This document shows positions 3,906-60,800 of a DNA stretch of 64,000 bases, piece by piece. Source of the stretch: Stomorhina lunata. Taxonomy: Eukaryota > Arthropoda > Insecta > Diptera > Rhiniidae. The stretch is taken from the NCBI GenBank assembly GCA_933228675.1, contig OW121744.1:20511111-20575110 (forward strand), written 5' to 3'. The position numbers were made by a program, and so were the translations under genes. How positions within the stretch are numbered: position 1 is the stretch's first letter; every line of letters starts with the position of its first letter. Under the pieces are notes generated by a model. It ran no database searches. It was not told where the DNA came from and saw nothing but the letters and a program-made list of their open reading frames with translations.

Positions 3906-3944
3906 AACGAAAATAAAGATATGATAAAACTGAAAAATGGTTGT

Positions 3945-4275
3945 GTGTTTCTGTTTCTGCTCTGTATTTTGTGGGATTATAAGGATGTTTTGTATTATGA
4001 ACTTACTGCACCGAAGACAATTGATTCGCTTAAAGAGAGCAATCAACTAAAACGAGCACAATATTCTCCCAAACATGTGGTCATAATCTTTTATCTTGGC
4101 AACGCTTGGACACATGTTGCAAGACCGGTCAAAAACTATTTAGAAAACAGTGTATGGTAAGTTTTGGCTCATCCGCCGTACAGGCCAGACCTTAACCCTT
4201 CTAAATACCATTAGTTTCGATCCTTACAAAAGTACTTACTGGAAAGCGCTTTACTTTAGAACAGGATATTAGAAA
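3945..4275 (+). pseudogene. Dead mariner transposase fragment (C-terminal half)
   Basis: The frame reads LLCILWDYKDVLYYEL, then IFYLGNAWTHVARPVKNYLE, and after a small frame change LAHPPYRPDLNPSKYH, FRSLQKYL and EQDIRK. This order is the C-terminal half of a mariner (DD34D) transposase: the LCIWWD block, the HDNARPH block, the HPPYSPDLAPSDYHLF block and the terminal EDI-K segment. Two catalytic positions are lost: the second Asp block reads YLGNAWTH rather than HDNARPH, and the third reads PSKYH rather than PSDYH. There is no N-terminal DNA-binding part and no inverted repeat. The relic stops at about 4275, exactly where a SINE-like sequence begins. It is inactive. Confidence 0.8.
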
Positions 4276-9109: not shown

Positions 9110-9432
9110 AAAAATATTTTTCTGTAAAAATTTTCGAGATAAATATTTTTATATCAAATCTTCTATAGAAAATTTTTGATAAAAATATTTTCTATAGAAA
9201 ATTTTTTAATAAAAAAATTTTTGAAAAAAAAGGTTTGCATGGAAAAATTTTTGATTTCCAAAGAAAAATTTTCCAAAGAAAAATTTTCCAAAGAAAAATT
9301 TTTGATAAAAAATTTCCCAAAGAAAAATTTTTGATTAAAAAACTATCGATTTTGATAAAAAAAAAATTCAAAGAAAAATTTGTGATAAAAAAATTCCCTA
9401 TAAAAAAATGTTTGATAAAAAAATTAGAATTA

Positions 9433-9495
9433 GGGATAATCCTCCTGATGAGATGGTCTAACCAACCATCGAAACGCGTCGAGGAAAGGTTTCCC
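9433..9495 (+). ncRNA. Type I hammerhead ribozyme
   Basis: All catalytic-core elements are present in order. Helix I 5' strand is GGGA (9433-9436) and TCCTC (9440-9444). CTGATGA follows at 9445-9451. Helix II is GATGGT (9452-9457), a 7-nt loop, then ACCATC (9465-9470). GAAA is at 9471-9474. Helix III is minimal: A9474-T9479 and C9475-G9478 closing a GC loop. The cleavage triplet is GTC, with predicted cleavage after C9480. The helix I 3' strand is GAGGA (9481-9485) and TCCC (9492-9495), leaving an internal loop of 3 and 6 nt. Minimal helix III, open helix I and an asymmetric helix I internal loop are known from hammerheads of Penelope-like elements and retrozymes. The carrier here is not identified; no Penelope reverse transcriptase is visible nearby. 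Confidence 0.9.
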
Positions 9496-9530
9496 CACCA
9501 ACATTTTTTGGTTTTATCAAAAAACTATTT

Positions 9531-9558
9531 ATTACAATAATAAATAATTGTAATAAAT
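9531..9558. other. Hairpin downstream of the ribozyme
   Basis: TTATTACAAT, a 7- to 8-base loop and ATTGTAATAA form a 10-bp AT stem about 50 bases 3' of the predicted cleavage site. It lies in the same non-satellite segment as the hammerhead. Its function is unknown. Confidence 0.55.
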
Positions 9559-10278
9559 TGGGATTCTTAGTGCAATACACTACAGTAAAACTTTTTAATT
9601 AAATGTTTGATGTCCCAAATTTTGATAAACCTTTTTAAAAAATTTTCTATAGAAAAATTTTTGATAAAAAAATTTTTTACAGAAAAATTTTTGATAAAAA
9701 AATTTTCTATAGAAAAGTTTTTGTTAAAAAAGCTTTCAATAGAAACATTTTTGATAAAAAAAAAATTTATATAGAAAAATTTTTGATAAAAAAATTTCAC
9801 AAAGAAAAATTTTTGATAAAAACATTTTCCAAAGAAAAATTTTTGATAAAAAAATTTTCTATATTAAAATTTTTGATAAAAAAATTTTCTATACAAAAAT
9901 TTTTGATAAAAAAATTTTCTACAGAAAAATTTTTGATGAAAAGATTTTCTATAGAAAAATTTTTGATAAAAAAATTTTGTATAGAAAAATGTTTGATAAA
10001 AAAAAAATTTTTGATAAAAAAGTTTTCTATAGAAAAATTTTCTATAGAAAAATTTTTGATAAAAAAATTTTCTATAGAAAAATTTTTGAGAAAAAATTTT
10101 CTATAGAAAAATTTTTGTTGAAAAAGCTTTTAATAGAAAAAAATTTTATAAAAACATCTTTTATAAAAACATTTTTTATAAAAAAATTTTCTATAGAAAA
10201 ATTTTTAATAGAAAATTTTCTACAGAAAAATTTTTGATAAAAAAAAAATTTTATAGAAAATGTTTTGTCGAAAAAGTT

Positions 10279-10910: not shown

Positions 10911-13841
10911 CTTCTTCTTTTATTTGCTAATCCGATTTCCGAATATAAGCGATCGTACAATTTAAAATTTTTTTACAATTTAATATAAAATTTATTTATA
11001 AAATGATGAGTTCTCGATTCTTTGCAGCATTTAGTAAATTTCTCTCATCTCTGTACCCTGTCCAGTCTTGAATATTTTTTATCCACGTTGTTTCTCTTCT
11101 GCCCCTTGTTCGTTTACCTTCAATTTTTCCTTTGAGTATTGTTTGAAGGACTTTATATTTATTATTTCTCATGATGTGACCAAGGTATGAGACCTTTCTA
11201 ATTTTAATGATTTTTAACAATTCTCTTTCAGCATGCATCCTTCTTAAAACTTCTTCGTTTGAAACTCTATCAGTCCATGCTATTTTTAGTATTCGGCGGT
11301 ATATCCACATTTCGAAGGCTTCTAACCTTTTTTCGTCACTAGTTTTAATGGTCCAAACTTCAGCAGCATATAGTAATACGGACCAAATGTAGCATTTGAT
11401 AAATCTTATTTTTGTTTGTACATTGATGTCATGGCTACATAGTACATTTTTGTATTTGCAGAAAGCGTCTCTTGCCATCTCTATACGACACCTTATTTCC
11501 TTGGACATATCCCATTGATCGTTTATTGAAACCCCTAGGTATTTATAGTTTTCAACTCTTTCAACGTCCATGTTATTAACTTTTAAAGTGGTGGTGGTGG
11601 GTTGGGTATTCTTCCTGGTTATAATCATATATTTAGTTTTAGAAATATTTATTTTAAGACCATATATTTCGCTCACGAGTGAGAGTTTTTGCAACAATTT
11701 TTGTAGTCCGGATATGCTACTTGTCAACAAAGTAGTATCATCTGCATATCTTATGTTATTGATTAACACCCCGTTTACTTTTATTCCTATGTGTTCTCCT
11801 TCAATAGTCTCTTGAAATATTTTCTCCGTATAAATGTTAAATAGTAGCGGTGATAATATACATCCTTGTCTTACTCCTTTTAGAATTGATATTTTATCTG
11901 TTAATTCTCCATCAACACTAATTTGGGCTGTTTGATTCCAATAAAGATTTTGTATGCATCGTATTATCTTTTCCTCTATTCCAATAGATCTTAAGATTTC
12001 CATTAGTTTGTCATGCTTCACATTATCAAACGCCTTTTCATAATCAATGAAACACAAGTAAACATCTTTTTGTACATCTCGACAGTTTTGAATTAGGGCG
12101 TGAACACTTAGCAATGCTTCTCGCGTCCCTAAACCCTCCTTAAATCCAAATTGGGTTATTCCCATAAACTCCTCGCATGTTGCGTATATTCTTTTGTGTA
12201 TTATCCTTAAAAATACTTTTAATGCATGACTCATGAGGCTGATTAACCTATATTCGCAACATTTTTTTGCATTGTTTTTCTTCGGGATGGCAATAAAAGT
12301 TGATATTAACCAATCTTCGGGATAATTTCCTGTATCGTATATGTGATTACATAGTTTTACTAAAAGTAAAACATTGTCATTATCAAATAATTTTAAAACT
12401 TCTGAAGGGACTTCATCAGGACCTGTTGCTTTTCTGTCCTTAAGAGAATTGATTGCATACTCCACTTCTATTTTAGTTATTGGTGTTCCCGGTATATCAA
12501 TATTTATTCTGGGTTCATATCTGGATCTTTCAGTATCCGTGAAAAGATCTTCTATATATTTCACCCATACACGTTTTTTGTTTGTCAGATCAGATACAGC
12601 TTCATTGTTTTCATCTAACAGAATAGGGGGGGATTTTCGCTTATATACACCTGCAGCTTCTTTCAACTTCTTGTGGAGATTAAAATCATCGTGGAGATTT
12701 TGCAGGTATTCGATTTCCTGGCACTTTCGGTTTAATAAGGCGTTTTTAGCAATTCGCGTCGCAGCTCGTATTTCTTTGTTAAGTTCCCAGTATCTTTCAT
12801 AATTTCTATTTTTGTGTTTCCTTCGTTCATTGCGGAGTTCTAGTATTTCATCATTCATCCATCCATCTTGCCCTGTTGTTGGATTGCTGCGTAGTGTGTC
12901 GTTGGTTGTTAAATTTATGGTGGTCTTGACGTTGTTCCACAGGTTATCTAAATTTTCCGCGTTTATATCTTTAAGTTTTGTGTTAATACTTTCTTTGATT
13001 TCATTTTTAATGATTGGGTCTCTGAGTTTCTCCATATCTAGCTTTTGTTTCCGTTCTCTTTTCTTTATAACAGCTAGCTTTAATTGGACATTCGAAACTA
13101 GTAGATTGTGATCTGAGGGTACATCAGCTCCCGGGTATGTTGTGCATTTTGTCACACAGGAACAATATCGTCTGTTTATTAATATAAAGTCGATCTGGTT
13201 CCTTATGATTTTTCCTCTATTGTCCTGTGGCGATTTCCATGTATACAATCTTCTTGGATGTAGACAAAAAAGCGTGTTAGTTATTTTAAACTTATATTCC
13301 TGGCAGAATTGCACCAGTCTGTCTCCTCTTTCATTTCTTTCTCCTAAACCATATTTCCCAGTGATGTTAACTGTTTCCTCGTTTCCAACCTTCGAGTTGA
13401 AATCACCCTGTATGATTGTGATTTCATGTGGTTTTGTCATTTTGAGTAGTTTCTCAATGTCGTTATAAAACTCTTCAACTTCGTTGTTGTTCGCATCACT
13501 CGTGGGAGCATAAACCTGTATGATATTAATGTTCAACGGTTTCCCCATTATCTTTACTAGCATAGATCTATCTGACATCGGAATATATCCTGTGACACAT
13601 TTTGCTACTTGGTTGTTAACAATTACTGCTACGCCTTTTCGGTGGATTCCATTTTGATTTCCTGAGTGGTAAATTGTAAAGTTTTCTGATGAAAATTGTC
13701 CACAGTCTGTCCACCATGTCTCACTGACTCCTAATATGTCGACTTTTAATCTTTTCATTTCACTTAGTGTATTATTTAGTTTACCGGTTTCATAGAGACT
13801 TCTGACATTCCAAGTCCCGATGTTGAGTTTTTTCTTTGTTT
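10911..13841 (-). mobile_element. 5'-truncated RTE-type LINE insertion
   Basis: The insertion is bounded by an 8-bp direct repeat, GAAGTCAT, at 10903-10910 and 13842-13849, best read as the target-site duplication. The sequence outside both boundaries is the same 24-bp repeat array. On the minus strand the 3' end is a short untranslated tail of about 85 bases ending AAAAGAAGAAG. The 5' end starts inside the endonuclease domain. Short 3' UTR, short simple 3' tail and frequent 5' truncation are features of RTE-clade LINEs; the clade call is inference. Confidence 0.88.
10996..13841 (-). CDS. LINE endonuclease-reverse transcriptase, 5'-truncated
   Basis: A long uninterrupted minus-strand frame runs from the insertion edge to the stop. 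The first Met at 13758 is internal: open sequence upstream reads LNIGTWNVRSLYETGKL, the true start of the apurinic-type endonuclease. Endonuclease motifs follow, with SETWW, IIQVYAPTSD, IIQGDFNSKVG, IDFILINRR and SDHNLLVS, over about the first 230 codons from that Met. The reverse transcriptase has FIDYEKAFD near residue 570, GVRQGCILSPLLFNIY, and the catalytic YADD near residue 671. The C-terminal region has WIYRRILKIAW, YLGHIMR and GKRTRGRRETTW, typical of RTE-like endonuclease-RT proteins. The enzyme would nick target DNA and copy its own RNA. With its 5' end missing the copy cannot move itself, but more than 900 intact codons indicate a recent insertion. Confidence 0.92.
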
Positions 13842-13849
13842 GAAGTCAT

Positions 13850-15609: not shown

Positions 15610-17269
15610 CAGTGAATTCCACTCAAAATGACCCACCTGTGAAAAATTTACAAAACTTGTTGTAACTCCAAAAACTTAATTTTAATTTTTTAACTTTTTT
15701 ATTTTTCTTAAATTTTAGGTAATATCTAATAAAAAAACATAAACATATTTCATTGATAAAAGAAAGTTTTCAATATTAACGAGAAAGAAACAAAACACAT
15801 GAAAAATTACGCGCCATTCAAAATGACCCAGTTACTTAAATTTAAGAATATACATAAAGTAATCATAAATTTCTATGGAATTAGTATTTGGTCGGATATC
15901 CTTTTTGACTGATTACTGATTTTAATCTATTAGGAACAGATTCCACCAATTTTTTTGTATAGTCTGGAGAGATTTTTTCCCACTCCTCCTTTAATGCAGC
16001 CTTGAGGTTGTTTATGTTTGATATTGCGTGCTTCCGAATTTGAACTTCCAATTTTTGCCATAAATTCTCTATAATATTTAAATCGGGAGATTGTGGAGGT
16101 GTTTTCAAGACTTTCGGGCAATTATACAATAACCATTCCTTAACGATGTGGGCAGAATGCTTTGGATCATTATCTTGATACAAGTGAAATGTATTCTCTA
16201 TCCCCAGCTTCTGTGCACTTTGTTTCAGATTTTCTTGCAAAATTTTCAAATATTGGTATTTGTTCATATTGCCCTCTATGAAGCACAAATTTCCAACTCC
16301 TGCAGCCGAACATGCACCCCACACCATCACATGCCCACCACCATGTTTTACTGTAGGCCGGAGATGTTTTGGATCCAACTCTTCATTAGGTTTTCGCCAT
16401 ACGTTTACCCTCCCGTCCGATCCAAATAAGTTAAATTTGGATTCGTCAACAAAAATTACGTTTTTCCAGAACTCATAATCTTTCATGCAGTAGGCGTGAG
16501 CGTATTCCAAACGATTTTTCTTATTTTTTGCACTAACAAATGGTTTCTTCCGCGCAATTCTTCCATGTAACCCAGCCTTATGAAGAACTCTTCTGACAGT
16601 TGTTGCACTGCATTTTGTATTAAATGTTTCTCCCAACATGTCTCGAAGATTTGGAGCACTTAATCGCGGATTTATTTTGACTTTTTGTAGAATCCAACGT
16701 TCTTCACGTTTAGTCAGAACTTTCTTACCAGGGTGTTTCGGTTTGTTTGCGATACGTTTTTCGTCATTATAACGTTTTATTATATTTTTTATAGTACTAC
16801 GTGGCCTTTTTACTATATCTGATATTTCTCTTTGACTTTTACCACTTTTGTAATGTTGTATTATTAAATTTCTCATTTCAATTGTGGTTTGAGGAGCCAT
16901 TATAGGAAAATGCGCAATATCTTTCACTATACAAATTAGTAAACGCAAGTAAGTCGATCACATGAATAAAATATCCAAACCAAGCAGACAGACAAAAATT
17001 AAAAAATATTTTTCGCAAAATACCGTTATATGAGTTACTCTCAATGTGTGGGTCATTTTGAGTGGCGCGTCATTTTTCATGTGTTTTGTTACTTTCTCGT
17101 AAATACTGAAAACCTTATTTAATCAATGAAATATGTTTATGTTTTTTTGTTAGATATTACCTAAAATTTAAGAAAAATAAAAAAGTTTAAAAATTAAAAT
17201 TAAATTTTTGGAGTTACAACAAGTTTTGTAAATTTTTCACAGGTGGGTCATTTTGAGTGGAATTCACTG
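15610..17269 (-). mobile_element. Complete Tc1-family transposon, IR/DR type, 1660 bp
   Basis: The ends are CAGTGAATTCCACTC at 15610 and its complement ending at 17269, flanked by TA at 15608-15609 and 17270-17271, the Tc1/mariner target duplication. The terminal inverted repeats are about 221 bp each. Within each arm the motif CCACTCAAAATGACCCA, or a one-base variant, occurs twice in direct orientation: 15619-15635 and 15814-15830 at the left, 17049-17065 and 17244-17260 at the right. The spacing is exactly 195 bp on both sides. This is the IR/DR organisation of some Tc1 elements, where the paired sites bind transposase. With an intact transposase frame inside, the copy could be autonomous. 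Confidence 0.95.
15881..16900 (-). CDS. Tc1-family DD34E transposase, intact
   Basis: The frame is 339 aa from MAPQTTIEMRN; an upstream in-frame Met at 16948 would add 16 residues, but the MAPQ start fits the family better. The N-terminus (about residues 5-110) carries two helix-turn-helix segments, with SQREISDIVKRPRSTIKNII in the first, for terminal-repeat binding. The catalytic core has VIFVDESKFNLFG (first Asp), YQDNDPKHSAH (second Asp) and SPDLNIIENLW (Glu). Exactly 34 residues separate the first Asp of DND from that Glu, giving DD34E. GGGHVMVWGACSAAG lies between the catalytic blocks. The protein would cut and rejoin the element at TA sites. There are no stops, and all three acidic residues are present. 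Confidence 0.95.
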   Translation of the reverse strand: MAPQTTIEMRNLIIQHYKSGKSQREISDIVKRPRSTIKNIIKRYNDEKRIANKPKHPGKKVLTKREERWILQKVKINPRLSAPNLRDMLGETFNTKCSATTVRRVLHKAGLHGRIARKKPFVSAKNKKNRLEYAHAYCMKDYEFWKNVIFVDESKFNLFGSDGRVNVWRKPNEELDPKHLRPTVKHGGGHVMVWGACSAAGVGNLCFIEGNMNKYQYLKILQENLKQSAQKLGIENTFHLYQDNDPKHSAHIVKEWLLYNCPKVLKTPPQSPDLNIIENLWQKLEVQIRKHAISNINNLKAALKEEWEKISPDYTKKLVESVPNRLKSVISQKGYPTKY

Positions 17270-24205: not shown

Positions 24206-26090
24206 ATGTCAGCTTTCAATCAAGACCCATCCATAAAAAGTTTCACTAAAATCTTTAAGGAAAACAATCGATCGGTTTTCCGAAGCTTGGAATTCTGATT
24301 CGCCATTCCTAAATAAAACAAAGTTAAAAGTAAAAAATTATAAAAAGCCAATTTTACTTTTGGGCTTCTTCCCTCCTTGTCCGACTTCTTTATTAAGCAA
24401 CTGTATTTATTTTTACCAAAATTGCTGTTGGAATTTATGCTCTGAGACAGACACTTGCTGGGACGGACAAACACATATTCAGTTAAAGTAAACAAGTGTA
24501 AAGAAGAAGTACCAAAATGCACCCGCATTTTATTGCATTTTTAGTTTTTGTTTTTTTTTTACATGAATGAATAGAATGACATCAGAGAAATTTTGGCGCC
24601 GTTAGTTTTTAGGTCAATTGGCAAAAAACCACATACCAAAAGTAAAGTAAAAAGAAATAAAAAGAAATACATATATAATGGAAAACTTTTTAAACAAAAT
24701 GTTTAAATTAATTATAAACTATACAATTTAATAGCATTTAAATAAATAACCGTTATTTTAAAACTAAAAAGAAATAAGATGAAGAAAAAATAAACGAAAT
24801 AGACATTCATTCGTTTATGCACAACAACACCCTTCCCATTTCGCTTAAATGGCAAAACAAACGTCAAACAAAAGAAATTAAATGGAAAAAAAATATGCGT
24901 CATTTGTTCGGTTTAGCTCATAGACTATAATTTATTTAAGATATTTTTTTAGTTATGTGTATAATGCAAAATATTAATGATTTTGCAAAAAAAAAAATAA
25001 CCAATTATAATTGCTTTCAAACAAATGACAAACGCCAAAATAATTCTAACCAAAAAATTGTTCATCAAAAGAGAGAGAGTAAGAGCTTAAGTTTCTCACA
25101 AAAATAATGACAGTTTCTTAAGGAAATTTGTTATGTATTTTTTAAGTAATTTATGGGAATTTAAAAGGCAATAGGAAACTCTATTTATGTTAAAGTTTAC
25201 AGCCCTGTATGAACCACAGCTGTATACTTTAACATCCTTCTACTAAAACTTAAACAAAAAAATTCAATTAAAAAGTTCTTTATACCAAAGAAAATTTAAA
25301 TTTTTTACCAAAAGTTTATATTAATTGCTCAAGATTAACTAATTTATTACAATTATTACCATAACAAACAAAACTATTAAAAACTAATTCAAAAATTTGT
25401 TTAAAAAGTTTTCAAAATATAAAAAGTTTTATAAATTTACAAAACTTTTTACAACTTTTTCAAAATACAGTCTAATTAAACAATTTTTTCTTTAAAAAAA
25501 TTTTAAATTATGTTAGTTATTAGAAAAATACTTGTTTAAAATGACATTATATAGTCAGTCAGTCCCGAGTTACTACACCCCATGTAAAAAATTATTAATT
25601 TTTCTTGTGGAAGAAAGCATGCGCAAAAAAAGAATTTGTTCAAACCGTTAGAAGAAAAGCATACACACTCACACACGCATACAAAGTTTATTTATTAGAA
25701 AAATACCTATACATTTAAGAATGCCGCAGTATAAAGAAACAGGGATGCCATTTCTATATAAAAATTATGAAAAAAGGCATTCAGGTTTCTTGTTTACGAT
25801 AGACTCAAAATGTCTATGAAATATTTTCTGTAATCTAGTACAAAACTGTCGCATTCGAAAATACGACAAACATAATAGATTTAATTAAATATTTCAAATT
25901 TAGTTAAGAGGATATCTTCTTTAAGCACAGTTTTCAGTATTTTTATAACTACAAGTCATTGGCAAAAGGTTAAAGGGAATTTGTAATGGATTAAAAAGAA
26001 ACATCTTTATTTTTCTATAACCAAACAATAATAGATGTTTGATTTTCTTTTAAGATTCAGAAAATCCGTTGTCTTGCGAATCCATTATAA
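24206..26090. other. AT-rich spacer, no gene seen
   Basis: A 102-aa minus-strand frame at 24220-24528 has no recognisable motif and ordinary AT-rich composition, so I do not call it a gene. Elsewhere only A and T runs were seen. Confidence 0.4.
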
Positions 26091-57821: not shown

Positions 57822-60800
57822 ATGTTATATTCCTTAATGTTTTACTTAACCAATATACCACGTTTACATCTATGGGCCTATGCGACTTTGGCCTATGTTA
57901 TATATTATTTAATACAAGTTGTTAAGGTAAGTAAATCGAATAACTAAGGAATTATAGTATAACCCCTGATAATGTACAAACTTGTAATTTTAGCGACCAA
58001 TCTTGGCCTGTGCCGATGGACCATTTAAAAAGTTTTTATATAAAAATATACCGACACTAGAAATGAAATATTGGCCAACATTTTGGTGTTTCGAAAGTCG
58101 TGCCCAAACAGTATTCGCTAGTTTTATAAGATCAAGTATTTTGCCAAAAATTAATTACAGAAGGTAATTTAAATTATCACTTTAAATTTTCAATAATATT
58201 TACCTTAAATTTTTGTTAATTAGGGAAATTCTAGTGCTACCCGATGGAGGTGAAGTTGCCTTAGATTGGATGGAGGATGGCTGTCGTGAAGATGGTCCCT
58301 GCGTTATTTTGCTACCAGGTCTAACAGGTGAATCGCAGGCGGACTATATCAAGTGTATAGTTTTAGCTGCTAAACATTCCGGTTTGCGTGTGGTCGTTTT
58401 CAATAATCGTGGCTTGGGCGGCATTGAATTGAAAACTCCTCGCTTGTATTGTGCCTCAAACTGTGAAGATCTTTCAGAGGTAGTGAAACATGTCTCGAAA
58501 ATTGTGCCAAAAGAAAGATTGGGAGCTGCTGGCATATCGATGGGTGGTCTAATATTAGGCAATTATTTGGTGCGTAAAAGCGATGAGGCTCGTTCTTATT
58601 TAGCGGCAGCTAAAATTATTTCCGCTCCTTGGGATATTCACAAAGGTAAGTTTTAAAGGATTTAATAATTTCATGTTTCTTAAATCTACCTTTTTATTTG
58701 TATTTTTTTAGGTACTATCAGTATTGAAAAGCCTATTTTGAATAATTTGTTAGGAAGACATTTGACCAGCAATCTCTGCAAAACTTTAAAGAATTGTGAA
58801 ATTTTTAAAGATGCTGACATTGATATGGAAAAGATCTCAAATGTAAGTTATAGTTAATAATTTATTTACTTTTTTTTCATGTAGTCTCTGACTTATAGTC
58901 TCTGACTATAAAGTCTCTGACGATATAGTCTCTAACTACATAGTTTTTGACTATGTAGTCTCTGACTATGTAGTCTCTGACTATATAGTACCTGACTATA
59001 TAATCTCTGACTATATAGTCTTTGACTATAAAGTCTTTGACTATGTAGTCTCTTAGTTTATAGTCTATGACTATATAGTCTCTTACTATATAGTCTATGA
59101 CTACATAGTCTCTAACTATATAGTTTTTGGCTATGTAGTCTGTTACTATAAAGTCTCTGACTATATAGTCTCCGACTATATAGTCTCTGACTATATAGTC
59201 TCCGACTATATAGTCTCTGACTATATAGTCTCCGACTATATAGTCTCTGACTATATAGTCTACGACTATATAGTCTCTGACTATATAGTCTCCGACTATA
59301 TAGTCTCTGACTATATAGTCTCTGACTATATAGTCTCTGGCTATAAAGTCTCTGACTATATAGTCTCTGACTATATAGTCTCTGACTATATAGTTTTTGC
59401 CTATATAGTCTCTGACTATATAGTCTCTGACTATATAGTTTCTGACTATATAGTCTCTGATTATATAGTCTCTGACTATATAGTCTCTGGCTATATAATC
59501 GCTGACTATATAGTCTCTGACTATATGGTCGCTGACTATATAGTCTCTGAATATATAACCTCTGACTATATAGTCCCTGACTATATAGTCTCTGACTATA
59601 TAGTCTTTGACTTTATAGTCTCTGATTGTATAGTCTGTGACTATATAGTCCCTCACAATATAGTCTCTGACTATATAGTCTCTGACAATAAACTCTCTAA
59701 CTATATAGTCTCTGACTATATAGTCTCTGACTTTATAGTCTCTGACTATATAGTCTCTGACTTTATAGTATCTGACTATATAGTCTCTGACTTTATAGTA
59801 TCTGACTATATAGTCTCTGACTATATATCCTCTGGCTATAATAAAGACAGAGACTTTATTATAGTTTTGAGCAATAAAGATTCTGACTATATAGTCTCTG
59901 ACTTTATAGTCTCTGACTATATAGTCTCTGACTATATAGTCACTGACTATATAGTCTCTGACTATATAGTCTCTGACTATATAGCCTCTGACTATATAGT
60001 CTCTGACTATATAGCCTCTGACTATATAGTCTCTGACTATATATTCCCTAGACTATATAGTCTCTGACTAAATAGTCTCTGACTATTTAGTCTCTTATAT
60101 AGTCTCTGACTATGTAGTCTCTGACTATATAGTCTCTGACTATATTGTGCCTAACTATAAAGTCTCTGACTATATAGCTTCGACTATATTGTCTCTGACT
60201 ATATAGTCTTTGACGATATAGTCTCTGACTATGTAGTCTCTGACTATATAGTCTCTGACTATATAGTCTCTGACTATATAGTCTCTGACTATATAGTCTC
60301 TGACTATATAGTCTCTGACTATATAGTCTCTGACTATATAGTCTCTGACTATATAGTCTCTAACTATATAGTCTCTGACTATATAGTCTCTAACTATATA
60401 ATATCTGACTATATAGTCTCTGACTACAAAGTCTCTGACTATATAGTCTCTGACTATATAGTCTCTGTCTATATTGTCTCTAACTATACAGCCTCTGACT
60501 ATATAGTATCTAACTATACAGCCTCTGACTATATAGTCTCTAACTATACAGCCTCTGACTATATAGTCTCTGACTATATAATCTCTGACTATATATAGTC
60601 TCTGACTATAAAGTCTCTGACTATATAGTCTCTGACTTTGTAGTCTCTGACTATAATCTTACTATATATACATTTTCTCAAAGTAATAATCAAATTTTTT
60701 ATTTTTTTGTTCAGTGTAAAACCATTAAGGAGTTCGATGCCTTATTTACATCCAAACAATTCGGTTATGCCCATGTGGACGACTACTATTCCGATGCTAC

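Follow-up and report, generated by a model that had tools for sequence, protein, structure and literature searches.

A fly genome, that of Stomorhina lunata, contains a dispersed, non-coding repeat family built around a type I hammerhead ribozyme, and one inserted copy of it lies in the window, the 64,000-nucleotide stretch of contig OW121744.1 that we analysed. The hammerhead is genuine and belongs to a dispersed, non-autonomous element that joins the metazoan retrozymes as a new member; its main interest lies in its insertion ends, which are of Penelope type. Our reading, to which we give a probability of roughly 0.86, is that of a non-autonomous, non-coding metazoan retrozyme mobilised by Penelope-like machinery, of which we infer the enzyme, the RNA forms, the cleavage and the role of the ribozyme. 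An earlier, sequence-only reading had suggested that a fly satellite had received either a solo retrozyme-like segment or a terminal segment of Penelope, and the genome does hold a non-coding family that is retrozyme-like and has insertion ends of the Penelope type.

A type I hammerhead in an interrupted satellite

A hammerhead is defined by CUGANGA, helix II, GAAA, helix III, a UH cleavage site and helix I, and positions 9433–9495 of the forward strand form a type I hammerhead with all of these in the sequence. The outer 5′ arm of helix I (GGGA, 9433–9436), placed by sequence and model energy, pairs with 9492–9495 and is followed by the 5′ side of internal loop 1 (UAA, 9437–9439, by sequence) and by the inner 5′ arm UCCUC (9440–9444), which pairs with 9481–9485 by sequence and descriptor. 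The catalytic core CUGAUGA (CTGATGA in the DNA; 9445–9451), supported by the descriptor and by genomic copies, leads into helix II, GAUGGU/ACCAUC with loop 2 CUAACCA (9452–9470; arms 9452–9457 and 9465–9470), then into the core GAAA (9471–9474) and a minimal helix III, C-GC-G (9475–9478), that runs into the GUC triplet (its TC at 9479–9480; 9475–9480 in all), each assigned from sequence and descriptor. Helix III is thus one pair, its CGCG is palindromic, and cleavage is predicted from the sequence to fall after 9480. The 3′ side of helix I (9481–9495, sequence and model energy) comprises the arm GAGGA (9481–9485), loop 1 AAGGUU and the outer arm UCCC (9492–9495). The ordered core, the helices and the internal loop of the sequence-only reading were therefore all present, every element where that reading had put it.

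The AACC of loop 2 could, as we infer from the sequence, pair with the GGUU of loop 1; both words are kept in three of four rows from a sister family (below), the fourth, L152p, being altered in AACC. The fold energy of the ribozyme was ordinary (z = −1.64), and the unconstrained minimum, at −18.4 kcal/mol, mispaired the core, compared with −15.6 kcal/mol for the hammerhead fold.

The 63-bp extent first proposed, 9433–9495, stands for the hammerhead, but the inserted feature is longer: on comparison with a 488-bp repeat unit taken from L024, the whole copy occupies 9425–9643 (+; 219 bp, 99.5% identity), corresponding to unit 22–240, and is 5′-truncated with its 3′ end at a position that we call site B. 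Its host DNA is a 30-bp A+T satellite. The left flank (‘..gataaaaaaat’) and right flank (‘tttctatag..’), when joined, resemble the 30-bp satellite unit, so that the insertion seems to have split the satellite; a target duplication, if there is one, would be masked by the A/T run.

Downstream of the ribozyme, on the same strand, lies a hairpin, TTTATTACAAT...ATTGTAATAAA (9527–9558), whose counterpart in the sister family is changed in sequence and kept in pairing. The predicted fold then places a stem, TTGGGA...TCCCAA (9558–9618), around a second 3′-end position, site A. The site A motif AAACTTTTTAATTAAA (9588–9603; unit 185–200) is read through in the window copy, which stops at the site B motif (9629–9643; unit 226–240, where the unit reads ACCTTTTTAATAAAT) and so carries a ‘tail’. 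Across the unit the two sites are a repeated motif, AAACTTTTTAATTAAA at 185–200 and AACCTTTTTAATAAAT at 225–240, 40 bp apart. In L024, unit positions of about 368–392 and 93–117, which lie in the 5′ leader of full-length copies and in the stretch directly 3′ of the ribozyme, look complementary; in the predicted fold, the resulting long stem would enclose the hammerhead.

A 45-bp fragment of the same element also occurs at 3911–3955 (unit 359–403, 95.6% identity); it starts exactly at 359, a preferred 5′ end of the family (below), and its 3′ side resembles an internal deletion by eye. A supposed relative at 25220–25460 was rejected because it looked like A+T noise. The window further holds a 949-codon LINE frame with endonuclease and RVT_1 domains (10996–13845, minus strand), which adjoins the satellite; a Tc1/mariner-type transposase frame of 357 residues (15881–16954, minus strand); a 15-bp satellite (58882–60655) that comprises 118 copies and has long open frames in either orientation; and a ribonucleotide reductase frame that shares 98% identity with Lucilia sericata and L. 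cuprina and so places the genome close to the blowflies.

Genomic copies and the case against chance

Run on both strands of the window, the descriptor gave a single match, the 9433–9495 hammerhead. As a chance control we used 116 Mb of order-2 Markov sequence modelled on the window, in which the loose descriptor matched 48 times, a form with at least 6 bp in helix II and at least 5 bp in helix I matched 3 times, and the minimal-helix-III form with at least 5 bp in both helices I and II matched nowhere.

The genome itself (728 Mb) contained 658 + 653 = 1,311 matches to CTGATGA-N(10-26)-GAAACGCGTC, with a reversed-pattern control of 0/0, so that conserved copies elsewhere, which the sequence-only reading had named as a check, proved abundant. 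CTGAAGA with the same 3′ core gave a further 1,506 + 1,494 = 3,000 matches, again with a reversed control of 0. Chance assembly, already called very unlikely from the single copy, is excluded by the 658 + 653 copies and their empty control; the minimal helix III, the unremarkable fold energy and the want of an Rfam match might have spoken for it, but against 1,311 + 3,000 copies its probability is negligible.

The covariance-model match that had been sought was not forthcoming: no Rfam model reached its gathering score in the window, and the top hammerhead match of a relaxed scan was Hammerhead_3, at 13.9 bits against a gathering score of 48.5 (E = 4). Across the genome RF00163 gave nothing usable, and since it was equally silent in every control genome this test says little. 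The genomic copies outweigh the absence of an Rfam match. Fifteen IMG/VR stretches that matched the bare core were set aside, as they look like chance (helix I of at most 2 bp by eye).

Two representatives of the CTGAAGA set, L152 and L153, are about 83% identical to the unit across its positions 1–161; by sequence, this set belongs to a sister family of the 488-bp unit (hereafter family 1). In the sister core position 7 is changed to A, a position that the hammerhead consensus CUGANGA leaves free. A pattern for the sister-family hairpin gave 2,357 + 2,365 genomic matches.

Family 1 was sampled as 80 fetched stretches, covering 98 of 100 listed places (of the 1,311), all on one chromosome. The core was near-invariant among the fetched copies, which we did not use as evidence because the search pattern demanded that core. 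The sampled copies were 5′-truncated singles, tandems of about 488 bp and head-to-head inverted pairs; tandem units recurred at 485–489 bp, which supplies the tandem hammerheads that the sequence-only reading had said to look for. In G000:C1:9582587-9584090 (minus strand), sister-core hammerheads stand 185 bp apart, or about twice to three times that, a tandem unit much shorter than 488 bp.

Insertions have two fixed 3′ ends and varied 5′ ends

Among 118 insertion pieces, including the window copy, strict scoring placed 56 3′ ends at unit 184–212 (A), 46 at 226–246 (B) and 16 elsewhere. Removal of shared flanks reduced the set to 109, with 48 ends at A and 45 at B (93/109). The ends peaked at unit 195/200 and 234–235/239–240, in or just past the repeated motif. 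The 5′ ends were mostly scattered, with a single peak at unit 356–364 holding 12 of 108 deduplicated copies (9/117 having been dropped for shared flanks), 13/109 in a stricter set, and 18/118 at 355–365 before deduplication. Because this peak lies beside a predicted hairpin (unit about 314–355), it may mark a start site or a reverse transcriptase (RT) stop.

The pieces grouped into 89 complexes, of which 63 were single, 20 were head-to-head (‘−+’) and 2 more contained a ‘−+’ junction; tail-to-tail (‘+−’) junctions numbered 0 in these 89. The sister family, in which we scored neighbours up to 700 bp apart at the first 100 places, likewise gave 11 ‘−+’, 6 ‘−−’ and 0 ‘+−’. Target-site duplications of at least 12 nt were rare (6/84 unique flank pairs versus 0.9 expected), several of the six being in satellite, where repeats mimic duplications. 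The insertions are dispersed, as those of a metazoan retrozyme are, with one qualification: L041, L050, L055, L081, L089 and L097 have a common left flank and a nearly common right flank, which suggests one insertion carried along by another repeat.

Arms of head-to-head pairs end at different sites

Family 1 contained 22 head-to-head pairs, and in 17 of the 19 that were scorable one arm ended at A and the other at B. (In a few copies, first-pass BLAST ends had by chance extended into satellite; the strict rerun changed the score from 18/20 to 17/19.) From the sister family we took 10 of the 11 close ‘−+’ pairs in the first 100 places, picked by ribozyme coordinates before their ends had been seen, and all nine scorable pairs were A/B discordant (by eye from the table; one unscored). 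Together, 26/28 pairs were discordant (P = 1.5e-6 versus equal odds), and the sister pairs of L152 and L153, scored later, were both discordant, giving 28/30. Both families thus contain inverted pairs, head to head, in which a single arm bears the tail.

The two arms of a pair were also alike. Sister-family arms differed by a mean of 1.3 mismatches within a pair compared with 4.4 between pairs (nine pairs, L163 excluded), and the within-pair sum of 12 mismatches, against 36.8 expected, was matched by 1 in 20,000 permutations. In family 1, the arms of pairs had 6 rare variants in common versus 0.7 expected, the highest of 500 shuffles being 5.

The alternation of A and B ends between arms is what one RNA with two start sites predicts, and we tentatively suggest, at somewhat short of even odds, that Penelope-type insertion uses a single RNA for both DNA strands, with sites A and B serving one strand each. 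Variants common to both arms could also be explained by two RNAs from one locus, or by gene conversion between arms. Self-priming has been suggested for Penelope inverted copies (PMC3846280; this paper, PMC7229834, PMC7761336 and PMC6466107 are cited throughout from excerpts) and gives no obvious prediction of ends that alternate between A and B. For the recombinant Poseidon protein in vitro, the start sites of top and bottom strands do not differ (PMC11167929); by analogy, this would speak against a fixed strand rule and would neither require nor forbid the one-RNA model.

A probable Penelope connection

Penelope copies, as excerpted, are often head-to-head pLTRs, one arm of which may carry a 31-bp tail; some have 8–10-bp target-site duplications, their targets are A+T-rich and partial tandems are normal (PMC3846280). 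With the recombinant Poseidon protein, reverse transcription begins internally on its RNA, at two start sites that bound the tail, and the protein cuts A+T-rich DNA and extends both strands; the Poseidon hammerhead was dispensable for insertion in vitro, and the start site lay in an AC-rich stem loop (PMC11167929). Family 1 copies have the corresponding tail, two fixed 3′ ends 40 bp apart, at start sites that are T/A-rich, unlike the AC-rich stem loop of Poseidon.

Candidate helpers exist in the same genome: at least 150 Penelope endonuclease matches were scored, of 201 candidates, and 11 lie in open frames of 830–864 codons. One Penelope group on C11 (G000:C11:74119133-74125410) shows endonuclease matches in tandem every 2,977 bp, with two of three plus-strand copies in 846-codon open frames; L110, which belongs to this tandem, contains a hammerhead core and the apparent start of the next ORF. 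The domain model PF01541 matched twice across the genome, one match being a Penelope endonuclease and the other presumably SLX1-like, but 28/30 relatives of the Penelope endonuclease match carry no precomputed PF01541 label, so that such counts are uninformative.

The unit itself carries no RT and GIY-YIG ORF of an autonomous Penelope-like element, as tested with endonuclease queries: 31 of these gave 0 matches in the window or in the 80 unit-bearing stretches (1–2.5 kb around copies), while the controls L105–L107 matched. The observation made from sequence alone, that no Penelope coding sequence is near, thus holds in the window. A peptide read from the ribozyme ATG led to no Penelope N-terminus (one candidate, none scored).

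Pseudo-LTR (pLTR) hammerheads of Penelope-like elements (PLEs) have reportedly been described by Cervera and de la Pena in 2014 and by Lunse et al. in 2016. Four of seven resident Penelope 3′ regions (L106, L107, L110 and L111; three families) had by eye a CTGANGA core, a helix-II-like stem and GAAA directly beyond the 3′ end of the endonuclease frame, the stem being preceded by one additional base; in L108, L109 and L112 the CTGANGA core was absent, with just look-alikes by eye. Compared with the unit, the seven regions showed no homology save a sister-family fragment, L107:551-614, the sole significant match, which is separate and further downstream, and none of the seven was an autonomous Penelope with the unit’s 3′ region.

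Proposed mechanism and its rivals

We propose that RNA of the unit, at times longer than one unit, would be captured by a Penelope-like protein, which combines RT with a GIY-YIG endonuclease and would be made by autonomous Penelopes at other places in the genome. This protein would cut A+T-rich DNA such as the 30-bp satellite, and reverse transcription would begin inside the RNA at A or B, 40 nt apart and about 120–160 nt 3′ of the cleavage position, with copying that proceeds 5′-ward and stops early. Extension of both DNA strands would yield a head-to-head pair, in which the two strands would as a rule have been primed at different sites, one at A and one at B. Multimeric or read-through RNA would be cut by the hammerhead into units able to re-circularise, perhaps most efficiently when two copies dimerise by CGCG/CGCG pairing; double hammerheads joined by palindromic loops of stem III have been described for PLE-like cases (PMC6466107).

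Copies would be expected to start at unit 78 if they were usually made from linear RNA that the hammerhead had cut. As a sample selected by the hammerhead is biased against 5′ ends at the cut, we repeated the test with a pattern 3′ of it (unit 78–100), which gave 1,468 places. Of the first 100, 58 had the exact core upstream by comparison of lists; the 42 others were read apart from one, in an array, that was left out (41 read). Three of the 100 began at unit 76–78, about 1.5 being expected (19 ends in unit 42–78). So few starts at the ribozyme cut imply that templates were mostly uncut or re-joined there.

In the published model, a retrozyme is copied mainly from hammerhead-made circles, here by any target-primed RT. 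We regard this as a real possibility, though one we would not favour, and it is compatible with, rather than opposed to, the Penelope-machinery reading. Many copies span the cleavage bond, and in three of seven tandem arrays read (L025, L029 and L080) the units have locus-private changes in common, as fits rolling copying; such arrays suit circle copying, but on their sequences would also suit a homogeneous tandem source, which likewise yields identical units. On the other side, L024, L027 and L028 have no private change common to their units, L026 not clearly, and the 5′ peak at unit 356–364 fits a linear RNA or an RT stop by the hairpin.

It is improbable, by contrast, that the unit is the pLTR of an autonomous Penelope and its copies are solo or tandem pLTRs. 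The insertion signature would be identical, some resident Penelopes have hammerhead cores in their pLTRs and partial tandems are normal for Penelope (PMC3846280), but the endonuclease queries that recover the controls miss all 80 unit-bearing stretches, the seven resident 3′ regions lack homology to the unit, and, among the matches listed, the six C1 endonucleases below 59.6 Mb include none within 5 kb of the 100 hammerhead places (by eye). Still less likely, indeed very improbable, is an immobile ribozyme-like satellite spread by recombination: tandem arrays are present and the six copies with one common flank did spread along with another repeat, but 63/89 complexes are single, with mostly different flanks, fixed 3′ ends and varied 5′ ends.

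Relation to known elements

The Penelope-mobilised retrozyme that we favour shares features with several known groups. Like metazoan non-LTR retrozymes, among whose hosts insects are mentioned, the family consists of small non-coding repeats that carry a single type I hammerhead in each unit, are low in G+C, occur in tandem and lack an LTR, PBS or PPT (Cervera & de la Pena 2020, PMC7229834). The small non-coding hammerhead unit does occur in tandem, though at 488 bp it exceeds the published range of 150–450-bp repeats and RNAs of about 170–400 nt; unlike those retrozymes, as excerpted, it has just C-GC-G for helix III, most sampled copies are single and 5′-truncated, and the insertion ends bear a Penelope tail signature that we did not find described for them in the excerpts (PMC7229834). 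Amphibian satellite and axolotl retrozymes also have type I hammerheads, whose helix III is a single pair with a palindromic loop, and dimers are said to be needed for high activity; these vertebrate elements differ in their 330–350-bp unit and palindromic tetraloop, compared with the 2-nt GC here (PMC7229834).

With Penelope and Poseidon PLEs the family has in common two 3′ ends 30–40 bp apart and head-to-head copies with a tail on one (PMC11167929; PMC3846280), together with A+T-rich targets, partial tandems and a minimal hammerhead with very short helix III. Unlike them, the unit has no RT/endonuclease ORF by the endonuclease queries, and it has a longer helix I, whose internal loop could base-pair with loop 2; its 3′ stem is TTGGGA/TCCCAA, versus GACC/GGTC by eye in the Penelopes of this genome. 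PLEs have already been suggested as likely or strong candidate movers of retrozymes (PMC7229834; PMC7761336). Our literature search, which covered open-licence PMC papers, turned up neither this family nor tail signatures for any retrozyme; as evidence of absence this is weak.

Thousands of copies with readable ends, together with long open Penelope frames in one chromosome-scale fly genome, make the question of a PLE helper testable. The copies bear on the purpose of the hammerhead, since few sampled insertions start at the ribozyme cut, and on how Penelope-type enzymes prime both strands. If true, the model of one RNA with two start sites would account for the presence of the tail on a single arm of Penelope inverted pairs, and would take the place of self-priming as suggested in print.
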